Shown here piece after piece: positions 17,708 to 63,640 of a stretch of DNA of 64,000 bases. This DNA is from Dorea sp. AM10-31 (lineage in GTDB: Bacteria > Bacillota > Clostridia > Lachnospirales > Lachnospiraceae): assembly GCF_003435815.1 (NCBI RefSeq), contig NZ_QTUV01000007.1, forward strand, positions 99,844 through 163,843, read 5' to 3'. The stretch's first letter is position 1, and each line of letters starts with the position of its first letter. Under the pieces are notes generated by a model, which did not search any database, was not told where the DNA came from, and worked only from the letters and a program-made list of their open reading frames with translations. Made by a program: the position numbers and the translations under genes.

Positions 17708-19174
17708 ATGGCAGGAAAGAGGCGCAGAAGACGCAGAAGAAGAGCAGGAAACTGGTTCTCGCGTCTAAGCATAGGAAAGAAGATTGCACTCTGTATGGGA
17801 AGTTTGGTGCTTTGTCTTGCGGCAAGCGGCGTGATATTTGTGGCAGCCAAGCTTGGCAAACTTGACACGGAGGAAATCGATGCGGCAGATATTCAGGTGA
17901 ACAAAGAAGCAGAAGAGACCGGGGAAGGTTATACGAATGTAGCACTTTTCGGAATCGATTCCAGAAGCGGTGAGCTGGAAAAAGGAACCAGAACAGACTG
18001 TATTATTGTAGCAAGTCTGAATAATAAGACAAAAGAAGTACGTATGTCCAGTGTTTACAGAGATACTCTTCTGGACATCAAAGACGGACACCTGCAAAAA
18101 TGTAATGCAGCATATAGTTTCGGTGGTCCGACACAGGCAATCAATATGCTGAATAAGAATCTGGATCTGGATATTGAAAAGTTTGCAACTGTGGATTTTG
18201 CAGCTATTTCAGAAACGATAGACTTACTTGGTGGTCTGGATATAAATGTGAAAAAAGAAGAGATCCAGTATCTGAATAAGTTTGTTGGTGAGACAGCCAG
18301 AGTTGCAAAGAAAAAGGCAAAGAAAGTTACCAAGCCTGGAAAACAGCATCTCAATGGCGTGCAGGCGACAACCTATGCACGTATCCGTTCAACAGCGGGC
18401 GGGGATTTCACACGAACGGAGAGACAGCGTCTCGTTATCCAGAAGATCGTTGAGAAGGCACAGAAATCAGATTTTGCTACGATCAACAAGATCATTGATA
18501 AATTACTTCCGACAATTAAGACAAACTTTTCAGCAGCAGAGATCCTCTCTTATGCGAAAGATTTTACAAAGTATAAGATCGGTGCCTCATCCGGATTCCC
18601 GTTTGAAAAAACGACAGATACGATTTCCGGACTGGGAAGTATCGTTATTCCGGTAAAACTGGACAACAATGTAAAAGAACTGCATAAGTTTCTGTATGAT
18701 GATGAAAATTACAAAACATCCAGTGAAGTGAAGACAATCAGCAATGCAGTTGTTGCAAGAGTCGGACAGAGACAGGCAGAAAGCAGTTCGACGTTGAACA
18801 GTAAGACATATAAGACAGCGCCGGAAGATAAGGCACAGGAGTCGAATAAGTATACACCGACAAGGTCTTATAAGAATAACAACAGCAGTTACCATAATAA
18901 TACGAACAGTAATCGTAACAACGGAAACAGCGGTACAAACAGTAATAAAAATAACAACAGCAATAAGAATAACAATTCGGGAAATCATTCTGGAAATACC
19001 GGAGGCAGCACAGGTGGAAATACCGGAGGCAGCACAGGTGGAAATACCGGAGGCAGTACAGGTGGAAACTCTGGAAGTAATACCGGAGATGGAAGCAGTG
19101 AATCCGGAGGCGGAAGCAGTGAATCCGGAGATGGCAATACCGGAGGCGGAAGCAGTGAAAACGAAGCAGAATAA
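17708..19174 (+). CDS. LytR-CpsA-Psr (LCP) wall-polymer ligase with Asn/Gly/Ser-rich tail
   Basis: LCP enzymes move lipid-linked polymers such as teichoic acids onto peptidoglycan at the outer membrane face. A very Arg-rich cytoplasmic start is followed by one membrane helix (about 20-45). The LCP domain holds FGIDSR, GTRTD, SVYRDT, NAAYSFGG and the ARIRSTAGGDFTRTERQR basic motif. The tail from about 380 is low complexity, ending in NTGGSTGG repeats encoded by an exact 24-base tandem repeat. The start is uncertain: an ATG at 17696 is in frame, but beginning at 17708 gives MAGKR, matching the MAKKR start of the paralogue at 20438. Ribosome sites for both are weak. Confidence 0.9.
   Translation: MAGKRRRRRRRRAGNWFSRLSIGKKIALCMGSLVLCLAASGVIFVAAKLGKLDTEEIDAADIQVNKEAEETGEGYTNVALFGIDSRSGELEKGTRTDCIIVASLNNKTKEVRMSSVYRDTLLDIKDGHLQKCNAAYSFGGPTQAINMLNKNLDLDIEKFATVDFAAISETIDLLGGLDINVKKEEIQYLNKFVGETARVAKKKAKKVTKPGKQHLNGVQATTYARIRSTAGGDFTRTERQRLVIQKIVEKAQKSDFATINKIIDKLLPTIKTNFSAAEILSYAKDFTKYKIGASSGFPFEKTTDTISGLGSIVIPVKLDNNVKELHKFLYDDENYKTSSEVKTISNAVVARVGQRQAESSSTLNSKTYKTAPEDKAQESNKYTPTRSYKNNNSSYHNNTNSNRNNGNSGTNSNKNNNSNKNNNSGNHSGNTGGSTGGNTGGSTGGNTGGSTGGNSGSNTGDGSSESGGGSSESGDGNTGGGSSENEAE
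18992..19063 (+). repeat. 24-bp tandem repeat, three units, within the LCP gene
   Basis: Three consecutive 24-base units encode NTGGSTGG; the third differs by one base. They lie in frame inside the low-complexity tail and are followed by further imperfect GGAAGCAGTGAATCC repeats. Unit number could vary by slippage without breaking the frame. Confidence 0.9.
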
Positions 19175-21704: not shown

Positions 21705-23303
21705 ATGAAAGCATTTAAGAAACTCAGTGCAGCTTTATTGACTCTCTGTCTGTGCGTGTCTTGTTTTTCTTTCGTTGCACATGCAGCAGATGGAAGAATC
21801 TCTTTTACAGATCCAAGCACAGCAGTTGGTGATGAAGTAGAAGTGAAATGTGTAGTACGCTCCACAAGTTCAAGCCTTGGAAATATGGAAGTGAAGTTGA
21901 GCTATGATACGGCTTCATTGAAATTTGAATCTGGAGATGGTGTGAAGGAAAATGGCGGAGCACTGACTTATACAGGAACCGGCGGCTCTACAGAAACTTC
22001 TTTTACAATGAAGTTTCAGGCGTTAAAAGAAGGAAGCACCAAGGTTGAAGTTTCCGGCGCAACGATTGCGTCCGATGTCGGTACGACACTGACACTGGAT
22101 CAGGGAAATTCAACAGTTAAGATTGCAGCGGGTGATCCATCCAAGATAAAAAGTGATTCCAAGAGCAGCAAAGCTGGAAATGCAGCAGATAAGACTGTAA
22201 AAGTAAATGGAAAGTCTTATACGCTGACAGATGAATTTTCAGATAATGATGTTCCGACGGGATATTCCAGAGTGACTGTTTCACTGGACGGAGAAGACCG
22301 TCAGATGGTGAAGAATGAAGACAGTGGCATTACACTTGGTTATTTGATGGACAGTGATAAAAAAGGTGACTTTTTCATGTATAATGAAGAAGATGCAACT
22401 TTTTCTCCATATGAGGAAGTCAGTATTTCTGACAGTACATCTATTGTTGTGCTGAGCGATACGTCCAAAGTAAAGCTTCCATCGAATTATCAGGAAGCAA
22501 AGCTGACTTTAAATGATAAAGAATTTCCGGTATGGCAGAATAGTGACAGTACAGATTATTATGTCCTGTATGCAATGAATAACAAAGGCGAGACCGGATA
22601 TTATCAGTATGATTCCCAGGAGAATACTTACCAGAGAATGGATGATCCGTCTGAGACTTCTAAGACAGATACATCCAGTAAAACTACTTCCAACAAGCTT
22701 CCGGCATTTGTAAATGATCATTTACAGATGATTATTCTTGCAGGAGGAATCGGAGCAATTGTTCTTTTACTGATCCTTATTATTCTTGGTATCAAACTGC
22801 ATAACCGTAACGCAGAGTTAGATGAGCTTTATGATGAGTACGGTATTGATGTGGAAGAAGAGCCGGTACCGGTAAAAAACAAAAAAGAAAAGAAGAATAA
22901 AAAAGAATCTCGTTTTGGTAAGAAAAAACAATCAGATGAAGATGATTTTGAAACTTACGACGGAGAAGATTTTGATAATGTAGATGATGGAGATGCATTT
23001 GAAGAAGCATATGTAGAAGATGATTATGATGCATATGATGCAGAAGACGCGTATGAAGATGCTTATGACGAAGATGATTTTGAAGACGAATACGATGCTT
23101 ATGACGAAGACGAATTCGGAGAGATTACTTATGAAGAGGATGATTACGGCAATCTGGATAAAAATGTATTTGCCGGATATACTCCAAGAGAAGAACTTAC
23201 GATTGATGATTTAGATGATCTTCTCGGAGAGACACCGAAAAAGAAGAGAGGGCATATGGAAGATGATGATACCTTTAAGGTGGATTTCATTGACCTTGAT
23301 TAA
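21705..23303 (+). CDS. Cohesin-like exported membrane protein with acidic cytoplasmic tail
   Basis: A signal peptide (1-27) is followed by a cohesin-like beta domain (about 30-145; GRISFTDPS start, LSYDTASLKF core). A second soluble domain (about 160-310) has internally repeated SYTL and TLNDKEF strands. One membrane helix lies at about 344-366. The cytoplasmic tail (about 370-532) begins Lys-rich, then becomes extremely rich in Asp, Glu and Tyr with DAYDE-type repeats, and ends FKVDFIDLD. Cohesin folds bind protein ligands; no dockerin is seen in this window. The ATG has AGGAGG upstream, 28 bases after the LCP gene, so they may be co-transcribed. Function is unknown. Confidence 0.75.
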   Translation: MKAFKKLSAALLTLCLCVSCFSFVAHAADGRISFTDPSTAVGDEVEVKCVVRSTSSSLGNMEVKLSYDTASLKFESGDGVKENGGALTYTGTGGSTETSFTMKFQALKEGSTKVEVSGATIASDVGTTLTLDQGNSTVKIAAGDPSKIKSDSKSSKAGNAADKTVKVNGKSYTLTDEFSDNDVPTGYSRVTVSLDGEDRQMVKNEDSGITLGYLMDSDKKGDFFMYNEEDATFSPYEEVSISDSTSIVVLSDTSKVKLPSNYQEAKLTLNDKEFPVWQNSDSTDYYVLYAMNNKGETGYYQYDSQENTYQRMDDPSETSKTDTSSKTTSNKLPAFVNDHLQMIILAGGIGAIVLLLILIILGIKLHNRNAELDELYDEYGIDVEEEPVPVKNKKEKKNKKESRFGKKKQSDEDDFETYDGEDFDNVDDGDAFEEAYVEDDYDAYDAEDAYEDAYDEDDFEDEYDAYDEDEFGEITYEEDDYGNLDKNVFAGYTPREELTIDDLDDLLGETPKKKRGHMEDDDTFKVDFIDLD

Positions 23304-52786: not shown

Positions 52787-54061
52787 ATGGAAAATCAATA
52801 TACTTATTATACACCGGATCAGGATGATCAGAATCAAAATGGACAGGGAGGTTATCAGTATCAGCCGCAGGATGAGAAACCACCGAAAAAGAAAACATCA
52901 CATTGGGTAAAAGCAGTATGTTTCGGACTGGCATTTGGTGTGGCAGCAAGTGCGGCTTTTCAGACAAGTAATCTTGTGGGTGGCAAGGTTTTCGGCACAT
53001 CAGGCAGTAAGACAAAAGAAGTTGCAACTGTAAACAGTGCAAAGATTACAACAAGTTCAGACAGTAGTTCAACAAGCTCAGATATTTCCAAAGTTGCAAG
53101 TAATGTAATGCCATCGGTTGTATCAATTACCAATTTAAGTGTACAGCAGGTTCAGAATTTCTTTGGTGGAGTGCAGGAGCAGGAAAGCAAGAGTGTAGGC
53201 TCTGGTATTATTATTTCCCAGACAGATTCAGAACTTCTAATTGCAACGAACAACCATGTAGTGGAAAGTAATAAAACGCTGACAGTTTCTTTTGTTGACA
53301 ATAAGAGTGTGGAAGCACAGGTAAAGGGAACAGATTCTTCCAGAGACCTTGCAGTTATCGCTGTAAAGCTCAGTGATATCAAAGATTCTACATTAAATAA
53401 AATTAAAGTTGCAACGCTTGCAGATTCAGAAAAAGTGCAGGTCGGAGAGACGGCTATTGCAATTGGTAACGCACTTGGTTACGGTCAGTCTGTGACAACA
53501 GGTATTGTATCAGCAACCGGACGTACACTGGATGGAGTTAGTGGCAAACTAATCCAGACAGATGCAGCAATTAATCCGGGTAACAGTGGTGGCGCACTTC
53601 TGAATGCAAAGGGTGAAGTGATTGGTATTAATACTGCTAAGGTCGCGACAGATGCAGTAGAAGGTATGGGATATGCGATCCCAATTTCCAGCGCAAGTGA
53701 TGTAATTAAAAATCTGATGAATCAGAAGACAAAAACAAAAGTAGCAGAAGGCAAACAGGGATATCTGGGAATTGAAGGCGTGGATGTGACTTCCGACAGT
53801 TCGCAGATGTATAATATGCCAACAGGTGTGTATGTATCTAATGTTATCTCTGGCGGAGGAGCAAAAAATGCAGGGATCACAAAGGGATGCGTAATCACAG
53901 AACTGGAAGGAACAACAGTGGACAGTATGTCTGCATTAAAAGAAGAACTGCAGTATTACAAAGTTGGCGAGAAAGTTAAAGTGACGATCCAGGTTCCAAA
54001 TTCAAATGGAAGTTATAAAGAGCGTACCGTGAAAGTTACACTTGGAAAAAGCACACAATAA
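52787..54061 (+). CDS. HtrA/DegP-like membrane-anchored serine protease
   Basis: An S1C-family protease for quality control of exported proteins. A hydrophilic, Gln/Asp-rich cytoplasmic start (1-38) precedes one membrane helix (about 42-60). The trypsin-like domain contains the triad in NNHVVE (His157), RDLAV (Asp187) and NPGNSGGAL (Ser267). One PDZ domain lies at about 325-420. AAAGGAG precedes the start. Paired GTTTAAACA repeats upstream suggest stress control. Confidence 0.95.
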   Translation: MENQYTYYTPDQDDQNQNGQGGYQYQPQDEKPPKKKTSHWVKAVCFGLAFGVAASAAFQTSNLVGGKVFGTSGSKTKEVATVNSAKITTSSDSSSTSSDISKVASNVMPSVVSITNLSVQQVQNFFGGVQEQESKSVGSGIIISQTDSELLIATNNHVVESNKTLTVSFVDNKSVEAQVKGTDSSRDLAVIAVKLSDIKDSTLNKIKVATLADSEKVQVGETAIAIGNALGYGQSVTTGIVSATGRTLDGVSGKLIQTDAAINPGNSGGALLNAKGEVIGINTAKVATDAVEGMGYAIPISSASDVIKNLMNQKTKTKVAEGKQGYLGIEGVDVTSDSSQMYNMPTGVYVSNVISGGGAKNAGITKGCVITELEGTTVDSMSALKEELQYYKVGEKVKVTIQVPNSNGSYKERTVKVTLGKSTQ

Positions 54062-54155
54062 GTAAAATACACAGTAAGAGAAATGTTTTTGCCATTTTCT
54101 GTGATTTGTAGTATAATGCTAAGTAGATTACGATATGAGGAGGCAAAATATACCA

Positions 54156-54620
54156 ATGAAGTGTCCGATTTGCGGCCAACAGCTCCGGCCGGGTAAAAAA
54201 GATCCAAATTACCTGTTATGTTATAATTGCAAGAAGAAGTTCAAAGTACCACAGAACAGGAAAGAACAGAAGCATGCTCCGGAAAGAAGAGAACCGGCAA
54301 CGCAGGAAACATTGCACAGATCTATTAAGGAAGCATCTATGCAGCGTCAGGAAGAGGAAGAGCAGGAACAGAAGTATTCGAATATTCCACCAAAGAGCGT
54401 TCGTAAGAAACGTGAAGATGAGATGCGCAAAGCATATGATGAACTGTTAGCAGTAGAAGATGGCAGAAAGAAAAAGAAAAAAACTGCAAGAGTAGAAGAA
54501 GATTATGATTACGATGATGTTTATGAGGAAGAAGAGAAGCTTTCCAAAGCGCCTGTAATCATTCTTGGAATTGCAATCGTAGTTGTAGCAGCAGTAATTG
54601 TATATATGCTATTGAAATAA
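54156..54620 (+). CDS. Zinc-ribbon protein with C-terminal membrane anchor
   Basis: The N-terminus has two CxxC pairs (CPICG and CYNCKKKF), forming a zinc ribbon. A charged, helical middle rich in Glu, Lys and Arg follows (about 35-125), and a single C-terminal membrane helix (about 132-153) makes it a tail-anchored protein facing the cytoplasm. The ATG at 54156 has GAGGAGG ahead; an earlier ATG at 54135 lies before that site and is rejected. Function is not known. It ends at a terminator shared with the convergent cotJC fragment. Confidence 0.75.
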   Translation: MKCPICGQQLRPGKKDPNYLLCYNCKKKFKVPQNRKEQKHAPERREPATQETLHRSIKEASMQRQEEEEQEQKYSNIPPKSVRKKREDEMRKAYDELLAVEDGRKKKKKTARVEEDYDYDDVYEEEEKLSKAPVIILGIAIVVVAAVIVYMLLK

Positions 54621-54662: not shown

Positions 54663-55112
54663 TTAGTTTTTGTTTTTGAAACATGCCCGGAGGTCAAATT
54701 CCGGGTTAAACGCATAGAAGTTTTTACTGTCCAGATGATCCTGTACGATGCGCAGACTTTCACCGAAACGTTGATAGTGTACGATTTCGCGTTCACGCAG
54801 GAAACGGATTGGTTCGCAGACTTCCGGATCTTTGACAAGGCGCAGAATGTTATCGTAGGTTGTACGTGCTTTTTGCTCCGCAGCCATATTTTCGCTTAAA
54901 TCGGTGATGGGATCACCTTTGGACTGGAAAGTAGTGGCGCTCCAAGGAACACCGCCGGCAGACTGTGGCCAGAGTGCAAGCGTATGATCTATATAATATT
55001 TATCAAAACCGGATTTCTCTAATTCTTCCATTGTCATATTTTTTGTAAGTTGATAAACAATAGCACAGACGATTTCTAAGTGAGCCAGTTCTTGCGCCCA
55101 TAAATGTTGTCG
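54663..55112 (-). pseudogene. cotJC: CotJC-type manganese catalase, 3' part only (5' end displaced by the integrated element)
   Basis: The reading frame matches the C-terminal two thirds of CotJC/Mn-catalase spore-coat proteins: ELAHLEIVCAIVYQLTKN (metal-ligand Glu and His), DPITDLSENMAAEQKARTTY and FLREREIVHYQRFGE. The open frame continues upstream of the first ATG (55037) to 55112, where it meets a TAG, and no ribosome site or start is present. CotJC is usually about 190 residues, so some 40-60 N-terminal residues are missing. A serine recombinase gene begins 16 bases beyond. The missing 5' part is expected at the far end of the element, outside this window. Excision could restore the gene. 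Confidence 0.85.
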
Positions 55113-55118
55113 CTAATG
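55088..55118. other. Probable attachment-site junction (host cotJC / integrated element)
   Basis: Conserved CotJC coding sequence gives way within this stretch to sequence ending in the recombinase terminator. The exact crossover bases cannot be fixed without the other end of the element or an uninterrupted relative. Confidence 0.6.
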
Positions 55119-55152
55119 AAAAAGCCCCTAAATACGCGGGATTCGGGGCTTT
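55116..55152 (-). terminator. Terminator of the recombinase gene
   Basis: On the minus strand AAAGCCCC and GGGGCTTT pair, followed by TTTC. It overlaps the last codons and stop of the recombinase. Confidence 0.75.
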
Positions 55153-56690
55153 AAATTCAGTGTAAAAGTAGGATTATCCTTATCTCCCTTACGATTTCGC
55201 TTCGTTTTCGTGTATTCGACACTTTCCAGGAGCATTTTCAGAGCTTTGTTCCGGTCCTGGGCGGATAAGTCCCAGTAACAGGAGAGAAGTTCCTTGCAGG
55301 AAGGGATGAAGTTCTCTATGTTTGCTATTTTCTCTTTTTCATATTCCAGATCTTTTTTCAGAATTTCTATGTGTTCTTCCGATTCTTTGATACGTTTCTG
55401 TAATTCGTGGGAACGTTCCAGAAAGATCTCGGTGGTGTAGACTCCCTGTTCCAACAGATCGTATAAGTTTCCATTTTGTTTTAGTAATAAATCGTGATTG
55501 CTGACAGCGGAAGAGAGAAGCTGTTCTTTTTCCGGAACTTTGTTCTCAACTTCCAGAGTCGGATCTAACTGGTATCCAGCTACCCAGTCGGATAGTGCCT
55601 GTATGAGTTCACGCTCTACCAGCTCAAGCGTTGAGCCGATGGTGGGACAGCCTCTGGTATTGCACATTAAAACGTCATATGGACATCTTCCGGAAGAGCC
55701 GTCCCTGGAAGCCGGTCTTCTCTGCATTTTCTTTCCGCAGCAGGAGCAGACCAGGATTCCGGCGAGTGGGTTTTTAATTCCATAGGATTCCGGCAGCTTA
55801 TGAGAGTTTTTGGCGAGATATTCCTGCGCTTCGAGGAATACATCATGATCAATCAATCGTGGCTGCAGTCCTGGAGCAGTGAAATCATAATCACTATGAG
55901 GACGTACTTTGCTGACGGAGCCGTTCTGGACTTGCTTTACAACCTTTCTTCGCCCAATGCCGACTCGCTGATCATTAACAACGTTCCTCAAGATTCCCAT
56001 AACGCTGCATTCCAGCCAGGTATCTCCGTTCCTTGGCTTGATTCCCCGGTTATCCAGATATCTGCAGATGTGGGTAATTCCGATGCGATCGGGACCGGTA
56101 TAGAGCCGGAAGATAAGTTTCACGACCGGAGCTTCGTCCGGATCCGGAGCGAGAACCCATCCACGCCCATGTTCGAGCTTCACGCGTTGCCAGCCGTAGG
56201 GTGCCTGATTGAACGGCCATTTTCCTTCCTTCACGGCAGCAGTCACACCGGCGCGCATCCGGCGGCGGATTGTCTTGTATTCCCTCCGGCTCATGAAGAG
56301 TCCGAACTCAAAGTATTCTTCGTCAAATTCATTATTTGGATTATAGGTCTTTGTTGGAGTGATGATCTTCGTTCCGGAATATTGGAAAGCTCTTTGAACA
56401 ATTCCCTGATCGACCGTATCACCTCTTGCCAGACGTTCCACTTCCATTACGAGTACACCTTCCCAACGTCCGGATTCTACTTCGGATAAAAGCTTCTGCA
56501 TTTCCGGACGCGCGGATATAGACTCTCCGGAAACGACTTCACGGTAGATCCCGCCAATGGATAAGTTCATTCGTTTGGCAAGATCAAGTAAGATCTGCTC
56601 ATGCCGTTCCAGGACATCCACGCCCATAGCTTCCAGAGAAGCATCACTTCGGGACTTCCGGAGATAGATAAGATATTCTTCATATTGCAT
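55128..56690 (-). CDS. Large serine recombinase (integrase/excisionase)
   Basis: The 520-residue protein starts with the resolvase-type catalytic domain; the nucleophile is Ser13 in YLRKSRSD. Conserved arginines follow in MEVERLARGD. The recombinase DNA-binding domain (about 165-290) is followed by a zinc beta-ribbon with CSCCGKKM and CNTRGC, then a coiled-coil (about 400-470). This layout is that of phage and ICE integrases which need a directionality factor for excision. The ATG at 56690 lies eight bases after AAAGG; a GTG three codons earlier is possible. It is the outermost gene of the element, directly beside the interrupted cotJC-type gene. Confidence 0.95.
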   Translation of the reverse strand: MQYEEYLIYLRKSRSDASLEAMGVDVLERHEQILLDLAKRMNLSIGGIYREVVSGESISARPEMQKLLSEVESGRWEGVLVMEVERLARGDTVDQGIVQRAFQYSGTKIITPTKTYNPNNEFDEEYFEFGLFMSRREYKTIRRRMRAGVTAAVKEGKWPFNQAPYGWQRVKLEHGRGWVLAPDPDEAPVVKLIFRLYTGPDRIGITHICRYLDNRGIKPRNGDTWLECSVMGILRNVVNDQRVGIGRRKVVKQVQNGSVSKVRPHSDYDFTAPGLQPRLIDHDVFLEAQEYLAKNSHKLPESYGIKNPLAGILVCSCCGKKMQRRPASRDGSSGRCPYDVLMCNTRGCPTIGSTLELVERELIQALSDWVAGYQLDPTLEVENKVPEKEQLLSSAVSNHDLLLKQNGNLYDLLEQGVYTTEIFLERSHELQKRIKESEEHIEILKKDLEYEKEKIANIENFIPSCKELLSCYWDLSAQDRNKALKMLLESVEYTKTKRNRKGDKDNPTFTLNLKPRIPRI

Positions 56691-56714
56691 ATGTATCACC
56701 TTTCCTTAGTATAT

Positions 56715-56728
56715 GTGCGACGTCGCAC
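56715..56728. promoter_or_regulatory. Perfect 14-bp palindrome upstream of the recombinase
   Basis: GTGCGACGTCGCAC is a perfect palindrome and much more GC-rich than its surroundings. It lies about 25 bases upstream of the recombinase start, where a repressor could control integrase expression. Confidence 0.5.
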
Positions 56729-56747
56729 TAAAAATGAGTATAAAAAT

Positions 56748-56837
56748 AACAGCCAGCAGAGAACTAGCGTTCTGCTTGCGATAGCTGTTCGAAGATGATA
56801 CAATATGTAGGTCAAAAGTTTGGTTGATACCATCTTC
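56748..56837. repeat. Two consecutive hairpins between the recombinase and fic
   Basis: AACAGC with an inner GCAGA pairs with TCTGC and GCTGTT (56748-56789). GAAGATG pairs with CATCTTC (56791-56837). No open frame of note is present. It could be a leader RNA, a regulator site or part of the recombination region. Confidence 0.4.
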
Positions 56838-56898: not shown

Positions 56899-57636
56899 TT
56901 ATTCTTCCAAAAAGTACTGGCATCTTTGACGATAATAATCTTGTTCCTTTTCGAACAATGCTACCAGTTCTTTGGTCGAGTTGTTTTGACGGAATGCTTT
57001 CAATGCTTCTAAATATTCAGGACGATTGCTGTCTTCAATAATGAAAGGAGCAATATCATGACGCAAGCATTCACGGAATAAGATCAGACGCCCTGTTCGT
57101 CCGTTTCCGTCCTGGAATGGGTGGATACTTTCATAGCGTGCATGGAATTCTGCAAGGGTATCAAGAGAAACATTCTGCGCATCGTACCAGGCAAAGAGCG
57201 AATCCATTTCATCATTTACCTGACTCGGCAAAGCAGTTTTGTATATCCCAACCATATTTGCTCGTTTCTTATATTCTCCGATAGCATATCCATTAGCGCG
57301 ATCTTCAAATACGCCGCTTTTTAATTCATAGTGAAACTGCTTGATCAGCTCCTGTGAGAGATCACGGTCTAAAGTTTCTAACATTTTATTAAACATCAGG
57401 AAGTGCCCGTTCATTTCTTCAACATCTTTTGCGCGATAGTAATCATCTGTCTTTGGCAAGATACCGGTGTCGAAGAGAGAAGCAGTCTGGTCTTCGGTTA
57501 AAGTGCTGCCTTCAATCTTGTTTGAATTATAAGCCATTAATCGTTGCGTCAGTCCATAAACTCCGGAACGATCACGCTTTTTATGCTCAATTTTAAAACG
57601 CTCCAATAGATATTGGATAAATAATGTCGTAGTCAT
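56899..57636 (-). CDS. Fic family protein (class II, with N-terminal inhibitory motif)
   Basis: Fic domains usually transfer AMP to a target protein hydroxyl. The active-site motif HPFQDGNGRTGR is intact. An SNKIEG sequence near residue 38 fits the class II inhibitory motif (S/T)xxxE(G/N), so the enzyme is probably auto-inhibited and needs release. It has 245 residues from the ATG at 57636, which follows AAAGGAG; an earlier start at 57672 overlaps that site. No separate small antitoxin gene is adjacent, as expected for class II. It could act as a toxin-like or regulatory cargo gene. Confidence 0.9.
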   Translation of the reverse strand: MTTTLFIQYLLERFKIEHKKRDRSGVYGLTQRLMAYNSNKIEGSTLTEDQTASLFDTGILPKTDDYYRAKDVEEMNGHFLMFNKMLETLDRDLSQELIKQFHYELKSGVFEDRANGYAIGEYKKRANMVGIYKTALPSQVNDEMDSLFAWYDAQNVSLDTLAEFHARYESIHPFQDGNGRTGRLILFRECLRHDIAPFIIEDSNRPEYLEALKAFRQNNSTKELVALFEKEQDYYRQRCQYFLEE

Positions 57637-57735
57637 AGGGACTCCTTTCTTTAAATATATAGTTATTTTCAATAAGTTTTCCTATTGTTGTATACAAAAA
57701 ATTCAGATATAATACGAAAAAGAGGAGGTAATGTT

Positions 57736-57978
57736 ATGAAAAAACAGTTTCTAAAAATTGTAGATTTATTAATTCTTATTTTTTCATTTGTCCTTCTTTT
57801 AAGTATCTTTTTTAAATTAATATCAATTGCTTTTGGAGGTAATGAAAATAACTATATTGTGTTGCTTTGGATGGTGGGACTTTGTTTTGCGGGTAAATTT
57901 ACTCATCCTCTATATCTTGAGATTCTTGCACTTCGTTTGCCACTGGAACATTGGCTGCAGATGCATCATCTAAAATGA
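57736..57978 (+). CDS. Small two-helix membrane protein
   Basis: An 80-residue protein with two hydrophobic helices (about 8-33 and 40-55). GAGGAGGT lies six bases before the ATG, a strong site. The last 27 codons overlap the 3' end of the convergent gene on the other strand. Family unknown. It stands alone between divergent fic and the EVE-like membrane gene, so it may be a moron-type cargo gene. Confidence 0.5.
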   Translation: MKKQFLKIVDLLILIFSFVLLLSIFFKLISIAFGGNENNYIVLLWMVGLCFAGKFTHPLYLEILALRLPLEHWLQMHHLK

Positions 57979-59062
57979 TTGGCTCTACTTCTAGAGTAGA
58001 GCAACCTGAAAGTAATGCATTAACTGGATCGTTTAAAGATTCTGGATCTATTCCAGAGTCTTTAATTTTTTGCAAAAGTTCTGCTTTCTTTTCCCATACT
58101 TCCAATTCAGCCTTTTCGGCTTCAGCGTGTTTGATGCGATAGTCGTCTTTAGCAAAAAGAATACTTTTTATAATATCAATTGCGCCAGGAACTTTAAAAG
58201 TAAGGGCACTACCACCACCTAGAAATACAAGCATGCCAAAAATAAATTGCCAGTTATTTACCAAAAGGTCTTTAACGTTAACTAGTGAAAATACAATATC
58301 CCCAGGTGAATTTAAAGATACTTGGGTTGATATGCATTCTTCAGGAGCAATGGAGGATAATAATTCGGTAGTTCCGTATAAAACATTGTTAATTGAACGA
58401 GGCCCGATAGGTGTTTGCTTTTGAACATTAAGAACAAAAGACATATCATTGCCAAACATATAATAATTGTATAAAGCATTAAGTATCTGTTTTGAGTATG
58501 AATCTAAATTTGAAAGTCCGTGATAGTTTGAAATTGCCCGACATAACGAATAATTTAATTCTTCATTCTTTACTGTTCGAAGCAAAGTTATGCGTCTGCG
58601 TTTTTTATAGGGACAAGAAACATCGTTTATATCAACATCATGATTGTCAATACGATATATAACATTCTGCTCAAGCTCTAAGGTTTTCGAATCATCTTCA
58701 TAATATTCACCAGCGAGGGCGAAAGTAATGTAACTGCTCTTAACACTAGGAATTACAAGTATATCATTGGTTTGAATTTCATTAATAAAAGAATAACATT
58801 TATTAATAACTGTTGAAGGACGATGAATTTCCTTAAATGTCATTAACACATCATCTTTTAATGAATCTCTATTGGACTCTGAAAAATCAGTTTTATGTGT
58901 GATATTATTCCATGCTAAAGCAACAAAACGTTTTGAAAGAAATTCATTATAAAAATAACCTTTTTTTGTACGAATCATCCAAAAATGTGTATTTTGTGGA
59001 ATAATTGGAACTTCAAATTTATCTAATAAATTGAGTAATGCCAATTCGTCTGTATATGTCAT
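57899..59062 (-). CDS. EVE/Mrr-N-like domain protein with membrane segment, candidate defence protein
   Basis: The N-terminal part (about 20-175) has the pattern of the PUA/EVE-like domain found at the front of Mrr-type restriction proteins: FWMIRTKKGYFYNEF, FVALAWNNI, NDILVIPSVKSSYITFALAGE and a basic YKKRRRITLLRTV strand. A helical region (about 180-255) leads to one membrane segment (about 268-292, NWQFIFGMLVFLGGG), then a short charged coiled-coil and an acidic tail. No nuclease motif is visible. The domain match is by pattern, not a search. Its place among Fic, HicAB and lysogeny genes suggests a phage-defence role. Confidence 0.55.
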   Translation of the reverse strand: MTYTDELALLNLLDKFEVPIIPQNTHFWMIRTKKGYFYNEFLSKRFVALAWNNITHKTDFSESNRDSLKDDVLMTFKEIHRPSTVINKCYSFINEIQTNDILVIPSVKSSYITFALAGEYYEDDSKTLELEQNVIYRIDNHDVDINDVSCPYKKRRRITLLRTVKNEELNYSLCRAISNYHGLSNLDSYSKQILNALYNYYMFGNDMSFVLNVQKQTPIGPRSINNVLYGTTELLSSIAPEECISTQVSLNSPGDIVFSLVNVKDLLVNNWQFIFGMLVFLGGGSALTFKVPGAIDIIKSILFAKDDYRIKHAEAEKAELEVWEKKAELLQKIKDSGIDPESLNDPVNALLSGCSTLEVEPIILDDASAANVPVANEVQESQDIEDE

Positions 59063-59088
59063 ACTCTAATTTCTCCTTTGTAAAATTA

Positions 59089-59484
59089 TTATTGTTTCTT
59101 CTGTACCTTTTGTAATAATGCTTCCTGAAGAACCTGAGAGAAATTAAGCCCCATAGCGGTAGCGGACTCATTCAACCATTCAGGAATAGTCAGAGTTTTC
59201 TTAACAGCCTTTGAACTGTGCTTTTTCAGATATGCGTATAAATCGAATTCCAAAACAACGAGAAAGCCATCATCGACTTTGAGTTCACTAATATCTGTAG
59301 GCTCTGGAATTGCTTCTTTTTCATCCTGTCTGCTTGTGATTGCAAGTCCTAAGGCATCAACGGCATTCTCATAAGCCTGCTGCATATCATCACCATCAGA
59401 AAAACATTCTGGAAAGTCCGGAAAAGAAATCCAAAAGCCTCCGTCTTCTTTATGGAAAATTGCTGGGTAAAATAATCTGTTCAT
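59089..59484 (-). CDS. hicB: HicB family antitoxin
   Basis: The N-terminus has the partial RNase H-like HicB fold (YPAIFHKEDGGFWISFPDFPECFSDGD, AYENAVDALGLAI). The C-terminal part with LTIPEWLNESATAMGLNFSQVLQEALL is a ribbon-helix-helix type DNA-binding segment. It neutralises HicA and probably represses the pair. It lies 40 bases after hicA on the same strand. A GGAGGT site precedes the start. Confidence 0.92.
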   Translation of the reverse strand: MNRLFYPAIFHKEDGGFWISFPDFPECFSDGDDMQQAYENAVDALGLAITSRQDEKEAIPEPTDISELKVDDGFLVVLEFDLYAYLKKHSSKAVKKTLTIPEWLNESATAMGLNFSQVLQEALLQKVQKKQ

Positions 59485-59524
59485 ACGTAATACCTCCGTG
59501 ATGTTTATTGTGGTACAGGTAGGA

Positions 59525-59713
59525 CTACTTTAGTCCTGCCTGCTTTAATATTGCCTGTTCCAAACCTTTTTTCAGGTCTTTTGAGTGATAAGGAACAATT
59601 ACCGTCCTACCAGTTTCCGGATTCATCAATTTGACGTGAGAACCATTCTGACTGACTATGATGAAACCGTTCTTCTTAAGAAGCTTAATCATCTCTTTTG
59701 GTGTTAATGGCAT
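59525..59713 (-). CDS. hicA: HicA family mRNA interferase toxin
   Basis: A 62-residue double-stranded RNA-binding fold toxin: MPLTPKEMIKLLKKNGF, the catalytic-histidine motif QNGSHVKL and IVPYHSKDLKKGL are conserved. It blocks translation by cutting mRNA. The order toxin then antitoxin is usual for hicAB. A strong promoter with repeats in its spacer lies upstream. Confidence 0.93.
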   Translation of the reverse strand: MPLTPKEMIKLLKKNGFIIVSQNGSHVKLMNPETGRTVIVPYHSKDLKKGLEQAILKQAGLK

Positions 59714-59744
59714 CTTTTGTATCTCCTTTCCTTATCATGGCTCC

Positions 59745-59773
59745 ATTATAACACGTATAAACACGTATGTCAA
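59745..59773 (-). promoter_or_regulatory. hicAB promoter with ATACGTGTT repeats
   Basis: On the minus strand a perfect TTGACA and a perfect TATAAT are 17 bases apart. The spacer contains ACGTGTTTATACGTGTT, a direct repeat, and further TATACGTATTTATACATAC lies just upstream. These are likely HicB operators. Confidence 0.8.
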
Positions 59774-59800
59774 TAAAAGTATGTATAAATACGTATAAAA

Positions 59801-60268
59801 TCATATCTTCTTCAACACTGCCAGATGCGGAATAAAAAATATGATGTAATGTTCAACTGTCTTGTATTCCCCGTATTTATCCCGATAAAATTCAATGCAT
59901 TCTTGCAGAGCTTCTTCTGTGACATCCAGATATTCTGCAATCTCATGGCTGGCAGTACAACCATGTTCGTATGCTCTGACCAGACCTTTGAGTCCGATCT
60001 GTTTATTATATGCCCATAATCTTGCCTGTCGCTCTTGTTTCCGATTGGAAGAACTATCCATATCAATGATGTTTCCAACGGAAGTGTAGTGGTGTCCAAG
60101 CTCCTCGGCAAGGACGCAGGCTTTTTCAGTTGTTGTATTGACAGATGTGTTAATGGCAATATTACCATCTATATAAAAACCTTTTAAATTGTCTTCGCCT
60201 AGATAATAATTGTGGACTTTTACATTATCGTCATAGGCTTCTTGTTCTAATGATTCTAATTTATTCAA
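59801..60268 (-). CDS. ImmA/IrrE family metallopeptidase
   Basis: A 155-residue zinc protease-like protein with the LAEELGHHYTSVG motif found in phage and ICE ImmA proteins, and a downstream WAYNKQIGLKGLVRA segment. In ICEBs1, ImmA cleaves the repressor ImmR after DNA damage or cell signalling. Here it lies directly downstream of a repressor gene on the same strand. The start is a TTG nine bases after GGGAGG. Confidence 0.85.
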   Translation of the reverse strand: MNKLESLEQEAYDDNVKVHNYYLGEDNLKGFYIDGNIAINTSVNTTTEKACVLAEELGHHYTSVGNIIDMDSSSNRKQERQARLWAYNKQIGLKGLVRAYEHGCTASHEIAEYLDVTEEALQECIEFYRDKYGEYKTVEHYIIFFIPHLAVLKKI

Positions 60269-60323
60269 AGTATAGTCCCTCCCAGCAATAAGTGTAGGAT
60301 AATAGTTGTCCTATATTGTGGAC

Positions 60324-60665
60324 TTACTTTTCATCTTCCTGCTTTACGAATTTTGCAAAAGATTCAATTCGACTCCACTGTTCTTCTGTAAAGTCTTTTC
60401 CATCAAGGTGAGCAGCCATAGTGGTAGGTTCTTCTATGTCCCAGCCCATAAGGTAAGCAGGTGATACCTGTAATGCATTTGCAATTTCTTCTAATTTATC
60501 TACGGGCATATTTTTTATATAGCCAGTTTCATATCTTTGGAGAGTTGATTTACTAATTCCTACCTTTTCAGAAAGAGTTTGGTATGACATATTAAGTTCT
60601 TCACGTCTGTTTCTCATTCGCTTCATTATATCTTGCATTTTTTCGCTTATTTCTTTTTCACTCAT
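60324..60665 (-). CDS. XRE/Cro-CI family repressor (ImmR-like)
   Basis: A helix-turn-helix domain (about 17-72; YQTLSEKVGISKSTLQRYETG) is followed by a short C-terminal part. It lacks the self-cleaving peptidase domain of CI, which fits control by the neighbouring ImmA-like protease. GGAGGT precedes the start. It is divergent from the Cro-like gene, with shared operators in between, and probably maintains the integrated state. Confidence 0.9.
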   Translation of the reverse strand: MSEKEISEKMQDIMKRMRNRREELNMSYQTLSEKVGISKSTLQRYETGYIKNMPVDKLEEIANALQVSPAYLMGWDIEEPTTMAAHLDGKDFTEEQWSRIESFAKFVKQEDEK

Positions 60666-60687
60666 ATCAATACCTCCGTATAAGGTA

Positions 60688-60715
60688 ATTATAAACTATT
60701 TTTTCATATTTGCAA
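60688..60715 (-). promoter_or_regulatory. Repressor promoter overlapping an operator
   Basis: On the minus strand TTGCAA and a perfect TATAAT are 16 bases apart. The -35 box is inside the CATATTTGCAACA operator, so the repressor probably controls its own gene. Confidence 0.7.
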
Positions 60716-60754
60716 CAAATAATTAAAGAAAATTAAAAAAATGTTGCAAATATG
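60705..60754. promoter_or_regulatory. Inverted operator pair of the lysogeny switch
   Basis: CATATTTGCAACA (60705-60717) and TGTTGCAAATATG (60742-60754) are exact reverse complements, 13 bases each. A third related site, CAAATATGCAAC (60796-60807), follows the divergent promoter, and a fourth (CCCAAAAATGCAACA) lies at 61024-61038 in the end of the Cro-like gene. Confidence 0.8.
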
Positions 60755-60756
60755 GG

Positions 60757-60785
60757 TTGACAATAAAATTTAGCGAGCGTATTAT
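60757..60785 (+). promoter_or_regulatory. Early rightward promoter of the element
   Basis: A perfect TTGACA and TATTAT are separated by 17 bases, placed between two operator sites. It should drive the Cro-like gene and the genes beyond. Confidence 0.85.
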
Positions 60786-60823
60786 ATAAATATCCCAAAT
60801 ATGCAACGAAAGGAAGTGAGATA

Positions 60824-61054
60824 ATGTCATTTGATAAATTGAAAGGGAAGATGACAGAGGCACATGTGTCACAAGCTAAAATGTCGGAATATTTAGGAAT
60901 TACAGTGCAATCTCTTAATGCTAAATTAAATGGAAGGACGCAATTTACTTTAGAAGAAGCGGTTAAAATTACTGACTTTCTAATGTTGAATGATCCTATC
61001 GATATTTTTTTTAGACCAAGCGTCCCAAAAATGCAACAAAAAGTGAGCAAGTAA
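60824..61054 (+). CDS. Cro-like DNA-binding protein (DUF739 type)
   Basis: A 76-residue helix-turn-helix protein (VSQAKMSEYLGITVQSLNAKLNGR) of the DUF739 type found next to phage repressors. It probably opposes the repressor at the shared operators. AAAGGAAGTGAG precedes the ATG. The last codons contain an operator-like sequence. A terminator-like hairpin follows. Confidence 0.85.
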   Translation: MSFDKLKGKMTEAHVSQAKMSEYLGITVQSLNAKLNGRTQFTLEEAVKITDFLMLNDPIDIFFRPSVPKMQQKVSK

Positions 61055-61061
61055 AATGAGT

Positions 61062-61446
61062 AGGAGCGAAAACAAAAATACTGATAGGAGCGCTATTCCT
61101 ACCAGTATTTTGCCAAATTTGTTTACTCTATGTACTTTGCAGGTTTTCACCACACTCGATAGCGCCAAGCGTTTCTATGAAATACTTTGTCACTTTCGCA
61201 GTTTTGGTTCTGCAGAATGCCTGATTGCTGACAAATGATAAGGAGTACTTAATACGGTGCGGCAAAAAACCAGATGCCGACTGAAGCATTTTTAACGTGG
61301 TGCGAACCACATAACGCCGTATCAGTAACTACATTATACCCAGTTTTAAGTGCATTGGTGCCACTATTGCGACCTTATCTTAAGAGAGCAGGCATATTCA
61401 AAAGTTTGGTCAAACAGACCACGCTCCTTTCAATGCCTAAGGGCAT
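61062..61446 (+). ncRNA. Candidate large structured RNA in the element
   Basis: About 500 bases here lack a convincing gene but hold many nested pairings. ATACGGTG (61252-61259) pairs with CGCCGTAT (61315-61322), enclosing CGGCA/TGCCG (61260-61279) and GTGGT-GCGA-ACCAC (61297-61310) with a GNRA loop. Further hairpins are AGTG/CACT (61349-61365), TGGTC/GACCA (61407-61421) and ATGCC/GGCAT (61433-61446). AGGAGCG (61062-61068) can close the whole unit with CGCTCCT (61422-61428). This is reminiscent of large phage RNAs such as ROOL or GOLLD, but no class match was made. The limits are approximate. Confidence 0.4.
61076..61112 (+). terminator. Hairpin after the Cro-like gene
   Basis: AAATACTG and TAGGA pair with TCCTA and CAGTATTT (13 bp, one mismatch) and TTTT overlaps the end. 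It may end the cro transcript or be the first stem of the structured RNA. Confidence 0.6.
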
Positions 61447-61559
61447 GAAAGAATTTTATCATAATATGAAAATATTTTCAATTTTAGAGTAGACAAATCA
61501 TTAGATTACTTATTCGCAACAGATGAAACAGAATCACAGTAGGAAGTGAGGTGAGAAGT

Positions 61560-61715
61560 GTGCTAGTGATAATAATTTGTATAGGTTGTTCAGTAATAAC
61601 TTCGGCATTAATTACAAAAATACTAGCCACCCACTATTTTAAAATAGTAGATGGCTATGTAGATGAAATGTGTGAAAAGACCAGAGAGTTCGTCAATGCT
61701 TTCCTATACAAATAG
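61560..61715 (+). CDS. Small single-helix membrane protein (51 residues, GTG start)
   Basis: GAGGTG lies six bases before a GTG start. The product begins with a hydrophobic helix (LVIIICIGCSVITSALI) and continues with a charged helix containing DGYVDEMCEKTREFVNAF. The arrangement is typical of small phage membrane proteins. Its 3' end overlaps the convergent Abi-alpha gene by 23 bases. Function unknown. Confidence 0.55.
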   Translation: MLVIIICIGCSVITSALITKILATHYFKIVDGYVDEMCEKTREFVNAFLYK

Positions 61716-62511
61716 AACAAAAAGTTTTGCCTAAAGAAGTTAGCTGTATAAGTTCTTTCTTGAAATAAGAAGTGGAGTTAGGATGATCAACGGAATAATC
61801 TATGGCGAACTCACTAACATTTGAATATTCAGGCGTTCTTTTTAAAGAATTATAAAAGTTATCACCGGAAATTTGTTTGTTGTAGTTAATAGAAATCAAA
61901 TTTGCTCGTTCCAATGAGTCAAGCGAAAGAGAAATTTGCTCTCTTTCGAGCGATATGCTCGGAGGAATAAAAACATTGTCATATAGAATTTGATAACTAT
62001 TACCTCTAATTTTAACACCCATTGAAGCAACTGGAAAAGAGCTCTGACTGGAAAGAAAAAGATCCTGTAACAACAAGGCGTCAGATGGACTTAATTGCTT
62101 CAATATTTCTGGGAACGAAGGATGTGCCAAAGAAGCGGTATCAGAGTTCATAGATCCACTGATAAGTTTTGTAAACATCTCTCTTAGGATTTCCGATGAA
62201 ACGCAGTACTTTGAGTTTTCCAAAGCCTGTGCAGTTGTTTGTAGGGATGGCTCCAGCTTTTTATCATCTGGGATTTCGTCGATGGATTGGTCTAATTGTT
62301 CGCGAAATTTTTCAAGGTCGTGCGCATATTGCAGACGCTTCTTTTCAGCTTTTTGACTGATTCCGCCAAAGACGAGATACCAAATATCAGCAAAGGTTTT
62401 TCCTATATTCTGAGTAGGAGCGTCGGTTAGATTTTTAACAGCGTTATCAGCGGATTCAGGCATATCAGGAAGGTTGATTAAAGCTATATTATTCGTAGTA
62501 TTCTCGGACAT
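61693..62511 (-). CDS. Abi-alpha (DUF4393) family protein
   Basis: The 272-residue protein fits the Abi-alpha/DUF4393 pattern: an early IWYLVFGGISQKAEKKR segment, the ELREMFxKLISGSMN-type motif (here ILREMFTKLISGSMNSD), HPSFPEILKQLSPSDALLL and a C-terminal winged-helix-like domain with LSLDSLERANLI and QLTSLGKTFC. Such proteins are linked to abortive infection, but mechanism is not established. The frame is open to 62688, but the ATG at 62511 follows AAAGGAA and begins the conserved part. It is the only leftward gene right of the switch, so it has its own promoter and is likely expressed in the lysogen. Confidence 0.8.
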   Translation of the reverse strand: MSENTTNNIALINLPDMPESADNAVKNLTDAPTQNIGKTFADIWYLVFGGISQKAEKKRLQYAHDLEKFREQLDQSIDEIPDDKKLEPSLQTTAQALENSKYCVSSEILREMFTKLISGSMNSDTASLAHPSFPEILKQLSPSDALLLQDLFLSSQSSFPVASMGVKIRGNSYQILYDNVFIPPSISLEREQISLSLDSLERANLISINYNKQISGDNFYNSLKRTPEYSNVSEFAIDYSVDHPNSTSYFKKELIQLTSLGKTFCSICIGKH

Positions 62512-62615
62512 GAAATCATTCCTTTCATCATTTGATAGGAAAATTATACCAGAGAACCGCAACAAGTACAAACTGTACCACATAACATGAAATAAGAACA
62601 CAGGAGGGCAGGAAG

Positions 62616-62771
62616 ATGATTGTAGAAACAATGAACAACAATGGCTGCACCTGCCATATCTCCGATGATGCATACCGGGATAAAACACCGGAAGAGGTGA
62701 ACCGGATTGTCCGGAGCTTTTCGGATTTCATCGTTGGAAGATTAAAGGACTTAAAAGAGAAAACCGCTTAG
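62616..62771 (+). CDS. Small soluble phage-type protein (51 residues)
   Basis: GGAGGGCAGGAAG directly precedes the ATG. The product starts MIVETMNNNGCTCHISDDAY and ends with a basic helix (FIVGRLKDLKEKTA). The family is not named, but such short proteins are frequent in early regions of Lachnospiraceae phages. The last codons form an ACCGC/GCGGT hairpin. Confidence 0.6.
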   Translation: MIVETMNNNGCTCHISDDAYRDKTPEEVNRIVRSFSDFIVGRLKDLKEKTA

Positions 62772-62863
62772 GCGGTTAAAGTAAGACAAGCTTTAAACAA
62801 GGTGATACAAGGTAAAACAAGCTTTTAAACAAGATCTACACAAGATCGGAAAGGGGATAGAGC

Positions 62864-62977
62864 ATGAGGAAGAAGAGAAAAATGAGCGAAGCAACACAGA
62901 GCGCACTGCTGATCTGTCTGTCCTGTTACGCGGCAGCAGTATTGATGTTTCTCCACTGGCTCTTTATTGGATATTGA
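62864..62977 (+). CDS. Small membrane protein (37 residues)
   Basis: AAAGGGG precedes the ATG. After a basic start (MRKKRKMSEATQ) there is one hydrophobic helix to the end. Its TGA overlaps the next ATG by one base (TGATG), showing coupled translation. Function unknown. Confidence 0.55.
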   Translation: MRKKRKMSEATQSALLICLSCYAAAVLMFLHWLFIGY

Positions 62978-63120
62978 TGAGAGAGCAGAGAATTAAAAGA
63001 TACAAAAGAAGAAAGCAGATGGCGTACAAAGTATTCTGCTGGATTCTCGGAATCCTGGTGGCGCTGATCGGCGTGTCAGTAGTTGGATTCTGGGTGGCGA
63101 TTTTTATGACATTTTGCTAG
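62977..63120 (+). CDS. Small membrane protein (47 residues)
   Basis: The start overlaps the upstream stop. The product has a very basic N-terminus (MREQRIKRYKRRKQ) and one long hydrophobic helix (about 18-45). It probably sits in the membrane with the N-terminus inside. Function unknown. Confidence 0.55.
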   Translation: MREQRIKRYKRRKQMAYKVFCWILGILVALIGVSVVGFWVAIFMTFC

Positions 63121-63134
63121 AAAGGGGTGAAAAA

Positions 63135-63374
63135 GTGCAGAACATGAAAGAAAAATGGCTTGGATTTGCTACAGATGAAAATGTAGTCCGGGCGCTGAAA
63201 GATATCCGGAGAGTGGCTGCGAAGCATGGCATCCGGCATGTGTCGGTGCAGATTCTGGACGGTGATGTGTATGGATATACCAATGATGCAGCAGCCGGTC
63301 CGTACAATCTGGAGATCGGAACTTCCGGATTAAGAGTCGAAGCCGGACAGGCACAGTATTTTAAAAGCATATAA
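63135..63374 (+). CDS. Uncharacterised phage protein (79 residues)
   Basis: AGGGGTG lies five bases before a GTG start, giving MQNMKEKWLGF; an ATG three codons later is possible. The mixed alpha-beta product contains IRRVAAKHGIRHVSVQILDG and a Gly-rich strand region. No family is recognised. It follows the two small membrane genes closely. Confidence 0.65.
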   Translation: MQNMKEKWLGFATDENVVRALKDIRRVAAKHGIRHVSVQILDGDVYGYTNDAAAGPYNLEIGTSGLRVEAGQAQYFKSI

Positions 63375-63460
63375 AAAGAGTGCCAGAAAGGGAAGAACCC
63401 GAATCCGGCACAAAAGAAATTAGTCAATTGTATTTTAAACGAAGAAAGGAAATTAGTCAA

Positions 63461-63640
63461 ATGGAGAATATTCCAGGATATGATTCGTGGAAGACAACAC
63501 CGCCAGATGATCCTGATCCAGTTGCATTTTGCGATAATTGTGACGCGCCTTTGTATAAAGGAGATTCAATTTATATGCATATCAATGAAGAAAATCTGTG
63601 TGAAGTGTGTATGAATGATATGTACAGGAGGATATTGTAA
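63461..63640 (+). CDS. Small zinc-ribbon-type protein (59 residues)
   Basis: CDNCDAPLYKGD and CEVCMNDMY provide two CxxC pairs for a zinc ribbon. AAAGGAAA precedes the ATG at 63461; the frame is open upstream without a ribosome site. Its stop overlaps the next start (TAATG). Such proteins are common in early phage regions; role unknown. Confidence 0.65.
   Translation: MENIPGYDSWKTTPPDDPDPVAFCDNCDAPLYKGDSIYMHINEENLCEVCMNDMYRRIL

Follow-up and report, generated by a model that had tools for sequence, protein, structure and literature searches.

A prophage related to Dorea phage DO134P1 lies inside cotJC, a gene repeatedly split by integrated elements

Introduction

Why should a cotJC-type spore-coat gene stop short beside a large serine recombinase gene, and might the gene be rejoined when spores form? 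The question is raised by a 64,000-nt stretch of Dorea sp. AM10-31, here called the window. A first-pass annotation had proposed that a serine-recombinase element sits inside the gene and that its excision could be a developmental switch. We examined the junction, the element and the fate of cotJC in related genomes.

Results

A prophage junction within cotJC

The minus-strand frame at 54663–55100 matches PF05067 (Mn_catalase, E 1.6e-26, Pfam) over profile positions 64–197 of 284 only, and so belongs to the CotJC/Mn-catalase family by its C-terminal part, as the first-pass annotation had read it. The cotJC 3′ part proper, which is host DNA and includes the stop codon, spans 54663..55091 on the minus strand, its boundary at 55091 being set by a shared GAA codon. 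The annotation had extended the frame to about 55112; the frame is indeed open to about there, but cotJC similarity begins only near 55091–55094. It had also reported that the gene has no start, which holds for the native start, although an internal ATG at 55037 gives a 124-aa open reading frame. The full-length relative P0003 (206 aa) is 97% identical to the fragment, matching it with its C-terminal part, and continues upstream through GILTDIGTEELAHLE. On the other side of the fragment lie two host genes on the plus strand, convergent with cotJC: a 424-aa protease-like gene named from its sequence only (52787–54061) and a zinc-ribbon gene (54135–54620). Three related genomes (L301, L302, L303) have an intact cotJC next to this gene pair in the order and orientation of the window, which provides the comparison with an uninterrupted gene that the annotation had called for.

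The recombinase gene, placed by the annotation a few tens of bases away, has its stop codon 36 nt from the cotJC part and encodes a full large serine integrase of 520 aa (55128..56690, minus strand; PHROG integrase, 1.3e-89) with Resolvase (4e-15), Recombinase (2.1e-12) and zinc-ribbon (1.8e-5) domains in Pfam. Its best phage relative is the integrase of Dorea phage DO134P1, a 38,320-bp record with municipal sewage as source and Dorea as host, at 98.9% identity over the whole protein; the next relative stands at 47%. The 40 nt after the integrase stop (55088..55127, minus strand), forming an attachment-site arm and core, are identical in the window and in the attP region of DO134P1 (L076), ending ATTTATGGGCGCAAGAAC at 55088. 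Past this point the phage runs on as ACGCCCAAAAACG, its own DNA, and the window as TGGCTCACTTAG, which is cotJC. Because the attP identity ends where cotJC starts and the integrase is 98.9% that of DO134P1, the adjacency of cotJC and integrase is not due to chance. In the phage, inverted arms GGGCG and CGCCC, read from the sequence, lie either side of CAAGAACA; since these short arms flank it, crossover probably occurred at the central GA of CAAGAAC (55094–55088), the exact pair being deduced from the arms. The attB codons in cotJC are TEELAH.

What the window contains is thus one end of a temperate, DO134P1-related prophage integrated at attB inside cotJC, with an element-encoded site-specific recombinase (55128–56690) next to a junction that matches the phage attP. 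The first-pass placement of the element within cotJC is borne out, the phage attP giving the switch point and P0003 the full-length gene, and integrase and 40-nt attP together allow it to be named more precisely than as a serine-recombinase element: a DO134P1-like temperate prophage.

The prophage backbone and its genes

Against DO134P1 the backbone is a mosaic, with common stretches of 97% identity at 55088–56751, 94% at 59799–60141 and 96% at 62518–63462 separated by stretches that differ; the last of these, matching DO134P1 22127–23082, carries the prophage on towards the window end, and the structural genes lie beyond it. The IMG/VR record L002 (40.8 kb, integrase 98%) has at its end the cotJC part found in the window, its first bases match the endolysin side of DO134P1, and it shares the cotJC–integrase arrangement with two further independent records (L004, L005). 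From the length and ends of L002 and the comparison with DO134P1, the missing cotJC 5′ half is expected about 38–40 kb further along from 55.1 kb, past the window end, where it would stop at DIGTEE beside GAACACGCCC. A search of IMG/VR with the 26-base attP string gave 0 matches for this far junction, and DO134P1 by name drew no paper in the open-licence PMC literature.

Beyond the integrase, the lysogeny genes (59801..61054; Pfam, PHROG) comprise an ImmA-like protease (59801–60268, minus strand), a repressor (60324–60665, minus strand) and a Cro-like gene (60824–61054, plus strand). The defence genes that the first-pass annotation had placed on the element are recognisable by Pfam and PADLOC as toxin–antitoxin and defence-like genes beside these, all on the minus strand: a Fic/DOC protein (56899..57672; Pfam 9e-17, PADLOC candidate PDC-S04 2.2e-92), a 387-aa phage protein (57899..59062; phrog_10226 6.6e-58, PDC-S02 2.3e-11), HicB (59089–59484) with HicA (59525–59713; pair at 59089..59713, Pfam 1.9e-12 and 5.9e-23) and an Abi_alpha protein (61693..62688; Pfam 8.4e-42, PDC-S47 1.8e-46). 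Across 56899–62688, the Fic, PDC-S02-like, HicBA and Abi_alpha genes are thus grouped around the repressor and ImmA genes.

cotJC is split at four positions in related genomes

Of 296 genomes drawn evenly from the Blautia parvula family, 187 had a PF05067 match, and cotJC was split in 51 of these 187 cotJC-bearing genomes, by hand count among the matches listed. Fifty-eight weak candidates were searched again: 48 proved split, six had a single part (G065, G076, G165, G262, G271, G325), one was ambiguous (G161) and three were not split (G062, G202, G295); the 51 are these 48 with G020, G022 and G013. All counts were made by hand among the rows listed, and the split count covers genomes without a full copy, a full-length copy being absent among the matches listed in 50 of the 51, with G013 as the exception. 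The cut falls at site 1 (GGPDG) in 14 genomes, site 2 (IGTEELAH) in 20, site 4 (DMAAEQ) in 11 and more than one site in six; site 3 (DHGVG) was seen in L110, L122, L151 and L154, outside the family count. Of the 48 re-searched genomes, 29 have the parts on one contig at distances of about 1.6 to 42 kb, and 19 have them on different contigs, with the insert itself unseen. Three parts occur on one contig in G031, G032 and G331, whereas G033 and G034 have four, spread across several contigs; the middle part is missing from G182 and the 5′ part from G013, and in G108 the gene begins at the edge of a contig. Class-wide, the hand count gave about 21 split genes in 90 genomes with a match, a figure that takes in G494, whose parts are separated by 157 kb, G518, in which a part is weak, and G486 and G568, each with one part unseen, and leaves out eight ambiguous genomes (G482, G505, G514, G519, G526, G551, G552, G584).

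Two sporulation genes served as controls in a 130-genome subset of this family in which cotJC was split in 26 of 88. The forespore protease gene gpr, judged by open frames of 292 aa or more, was split in none of the best 93 matches, and the mother-cell coat gene spoIVA in none of the 92 over the cut-off, short frames in G067 and G113 lying outside this check. Since all 26 split genomes match both control genes, none of them is an obvious non-sporulator. YabG was useless as a control, being present in 1 of the 130 genomes. Full second copies of cotJC in G013, G021, G028 and G037 were considered as captured excised forms and rejected, as they are paralogues with 30–59% identity.

Junctions keep the reading frame and the parts stay open

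We set up 42 pairs of ends, of which 40 could be aligned in codon register, and none of the 40 joined composites contains a stop. The exact run shared by the two ends averages 8.5 nt at site 1 and 8.4 nt at site 2, compared with 4.7 and 5.5 nt when ends are swapped between genomes, whereas site 4 shows no excess (6.2 nt vs 6.0 swapped), perhaps because the sequence there is so conserved. The pair in G035 is out of register, and those of G331b and G245 share only 2 nt. The short core that the first-pass annotation had anticipated next to the missing 5′ part is found in other species at both halves, with codon phase kept, at sites 1 and 2 but not above the swapped level at site 4. In these relatives both ends keep a gene part and the shared core in codon phase, and exact excision, as read from the joined sequences, would give an unbroken CotJC.

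None of 63 unique split 3′ parts contains a stop. At 20 near-invariant columns, deviation in the 0.7–0.8 identity band was 0.11 for intact genes, 0 for site 1 and 0.05 for site 2; above 0.8 it was 0 in all groups, and in the 0.6–0.7 band split genes deviated slightly more (0.25 at site 1 and 0.38 at site 2, against 0.11 in intact genes; n 4, 8 and 9). Over all sequences the mean deviation of site 2 was 0.54 vs 0.05, driven by distant lineages. The set consists of matches reaching residue 175, which disfavours broken parts, and shorter matches end at another known cut or a contig end. In seven fetched loci (L246, L247, L248, L249, L288, L292, L297) the integrase is C-terminally truncated and the cotJC parts on either side are open nonetheless, so openness alone is no proof of excision; the open parts are consistent with regulated rejoining without proving it. 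When the age of the splits was assessed by synonymous divergence, the integrase and cotJC signals conflicted, disagreeing in several pairs (dS 0.034 vs 0.582 in L092/L093, for example), so the elements travel from host to host and may be recent arrivals where they now sit.

Several integrase lineages, small elements and other target genes

Among 80 loci with integrase relatives drawn from genome_contigs, a cotJC part was present in 47, a contig end in three and neither in 30; of 75 viral loci, 63 were classed. The part lies at most 400 nt downstream of the integrase in 29 of the 47 and elsewhere in the locus in 18, in 13 of which an upstream cotJC part faces the integrase 3′ end within 700 nt. 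Integrases of the window's family that lie in the opposite orientation, with their 3′ end towards the upstream cotJC part, were noted in L078, L079, L083, L095, L098, L100, L108, L109, L113, L114, L129, L140 and L142. The integrases form four groups: site 1, site 2 of the window type, site 2 of a second type whose core lies about nine bases upstream, and site 4. Identity is about 35–63%, 43–55%, 47–53% and 68–72% within these groups, in that order, and about 19–33% between them, as compared in small elements. Since identity between groups is below that within them, at least four integrase lineages have, on these sequence comparisons, settled in cotJC.

Several elements in cotJC measure only about 1.6–8 kb, and the cargo of small elements is unlike that of a phage, including AbiL-like, HepT/MntA-like, S66 peptidase, sulphate permease, GGDEF-HD, alanine symporter and GH20 genes. 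Elements of ~2.7–7 kb in cotJC (L248, L251–L255, L289, L297) carry AbiL-like, HepT/MntA-like, permease, symporter, LRR or GH20 genes. Of the 59 stretches retrieved, 40 contain an integrase ORF; the other 19 comprise three intact loci, L304, which is without cotJC, and 15 others, mostly single element ends.

Two other genes recur as targets. A LysM-GH18 gene, YaaH-like by domain make-up, holds the integrase in ten of the 80 loci (L097, L104, L106, L123, L132, L133, L138, L144, L146, L150) and an asparagine-synthase gene in five (L127, L135, L136, L149, L152); a V-type ATPase gene adjoins one further integrase, and other loci without cotJC number 14. In Bacillus, the genes for YaaH and for a sporulation-specific asparagine synthetase belong to the mother cell; our search of the open-licence PMC literature found no paper on yaaH or asnO as mother-cell genes.

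Signals bearing on regulation

Upstream of cotJA or the cotJABC operon, a pattern search found CATACwATA-like sites in 26 of 68 stretches, a motif resembling, in sequence, the sigma-K −10 element. A motif-sampler result from the region upstream of cotJA was rejected as the ribosome site. The integrase leader (56691–56760) contains CATATACTA without a matching −35; we take CATATACTA to resemble the −10 element of sigma-K, as well as an ordinary −10, and the leader fits an ordinary promoter too. The leader is conserved in close relatives, with a palindrome GTGCGACGTCGCAC just before CATATACTA. Inspection by eye and by script identified no mother-cell promoter, and no candidate for a directionality factor emerged. 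In C. difficile, cotJC-type operons depend on sigma-K (PMC3789822); by analogy with the expression of those homologues, the gene in which the window element sits would belong to the mother-cell sporulation set.

Discussion

We favour, with some reserve, a prophage that resides in cotJC and is excised in the mother cell of sporulating cells so that CotJC is made. The DO134P1-like phage has integrated through its own large serine integrase at attB in cotJC; together with a partner factor this integrase would then cut the element out in the mother cell, the site of cotJC-type gene expression, so that the coat catalase is made there and the prophage passes into the spore. Exact removal of an element by the integrase that inserted it is established for the large serine class. 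Excision in the mother cell we infer from the choice of target, from precedents of the skin, SPbeta, gin and yin kind and from sigma-K control in C. difficile. That mobile DNA cuts this one gene, at times in several places, in roughly a quarter of the related species surveyed suggests that cotJC is rejoined at sporulation. An insertion in a gene of a terminal cell costs the host little if it is undone there, which may be why cotJC would be a preferred home of many such elements. A wider proposal, to which we lend slightly less than even credence, is that cotJC is somatically assembled in much of the spore-forming Clostridia: roughly a quarter of species would store it as two to four pieces, between which lie unrelated serine-integrase elements that each bring their own integrase and site, so that up to three mother-cell excisions are required, and relatives of the same integrase would treat the LysM-GH18 and asparagine-synthase genes likewise.

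Plain lysogeny, which we regard as rather less probable but a serious competitor, would make cotJC a conserved, dispensable attB that is silenced by integrating phages and islands, which leave only on ordinary induction, sporulation playing no special part. It accords with an isolated phage as nearest relative, with horizontal movement of the elements, with truncated integrases and with the failure of promoter searches, by eye and script, to turn up a regulator; moreover, in C. difficile, mutants in cotJC homologues gave normal spore yields, so that these genes are dispensable for yield (PMC9542656). It fits less well with gene parts that, even without promoter or start, are open in 63 unique sequences and, in genomes with three or four, open throughout, nor would it lead one to expect elements of about 1.6–8 kb or further recurrent targets that look like spore genes too.

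A third reading, that the window holds a naturally short CotJC, a decayed pseudogene or an assembly error with the integrase as an unrelated neighbour, could appeal to the internal ATG and to P0013, a truncated 124-aa form catalogued on 176 contigs. We consider it very improbable: the phage attP gives an exact switch point, the full-length relative has the missing part, independent records repeat the arrangement, and no cotJC match was seen in DO134P1 itself.

Mother-cell excision of the kind proposed here has precedents in sigK, spsM, gerE, spoVFB, spoVR and yabG (PMC6957869, PMC5595907, PMC4191935, PMC10747680). Among the closest known systems, SPbeta in spsM of Bacillus subtilis is likewise a prophage that splits a mother-cell sporulation gene and has a large serine integrase next to an att site; the cotJC case differs in its target, in its host, a relative of gut Clostridia, in that excision is deduced here, and in that other cotJC species carry two or three elements in one gene (SPbeta: PMC4191935). 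As in gin of gerE in Bacillus cereus, a core lies at both halves beside a serine recombinase and, in the small cotJC elements, non-phage cargo, but gin has three recombinase genes in its element (PMC5595907), where we find a single integrase gene, or remnants, in each of the small cotJC elements examined. Yin in yabG of Clostridium botulinum resembles our case as a prophage-like insertion into a sporulation gene of a clostridium, with attB intact in related strains, but is reported from a single strain (PMC10747680), whereas cotJC splits occur in many genomes. Phage phi027 of C. difficile is a functional temperate phage adjoining the CotJC homologue cotG; however, the 678-bp cotG is described downstream of attR and not as split, and the published attP is not the same as the DO134P1 site (PMC11222575, PMC12122855).

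A search of the open-licence PMC literature found no paper on an element inside cotJC, and as far as these searches show the kind of system is known, with the cotJC target, the multiple sites and the frequency being new. Published sporulation rearrangements, in the accounts we draw on, are few, each gene being host to a single element; cotJC has been entered again and again, at four positions and by no fewer than four integrase lineages, across roughly a quarter of the surveyed species. Why phages and islands settle in mother-cell genes becomes testable with numbers, many pairs of integrase and attachment site are supplied, and the matter bears on the peroxide resistance of the spores of common gut bacteria. 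If excision should not be tied to sporulation, cotJC would still be a striking integration hotspot.

Other forms of cotJC

P0002 is a cotJC form cut a few codons earlier than the fragment in the window. Contig C68 of G079 carries two cotJC 3′ parts (14708–15085 and 18245–18625), 3.2 kb apart, and the single 5′ part of that genome is on another contig. On a 1,676-bp contig, P0001 joins an ImmA-like N-terminus in frame to CotJC at the shared motif EELAH, and represents either a phage with its attP in immA or a chimeric assembly.
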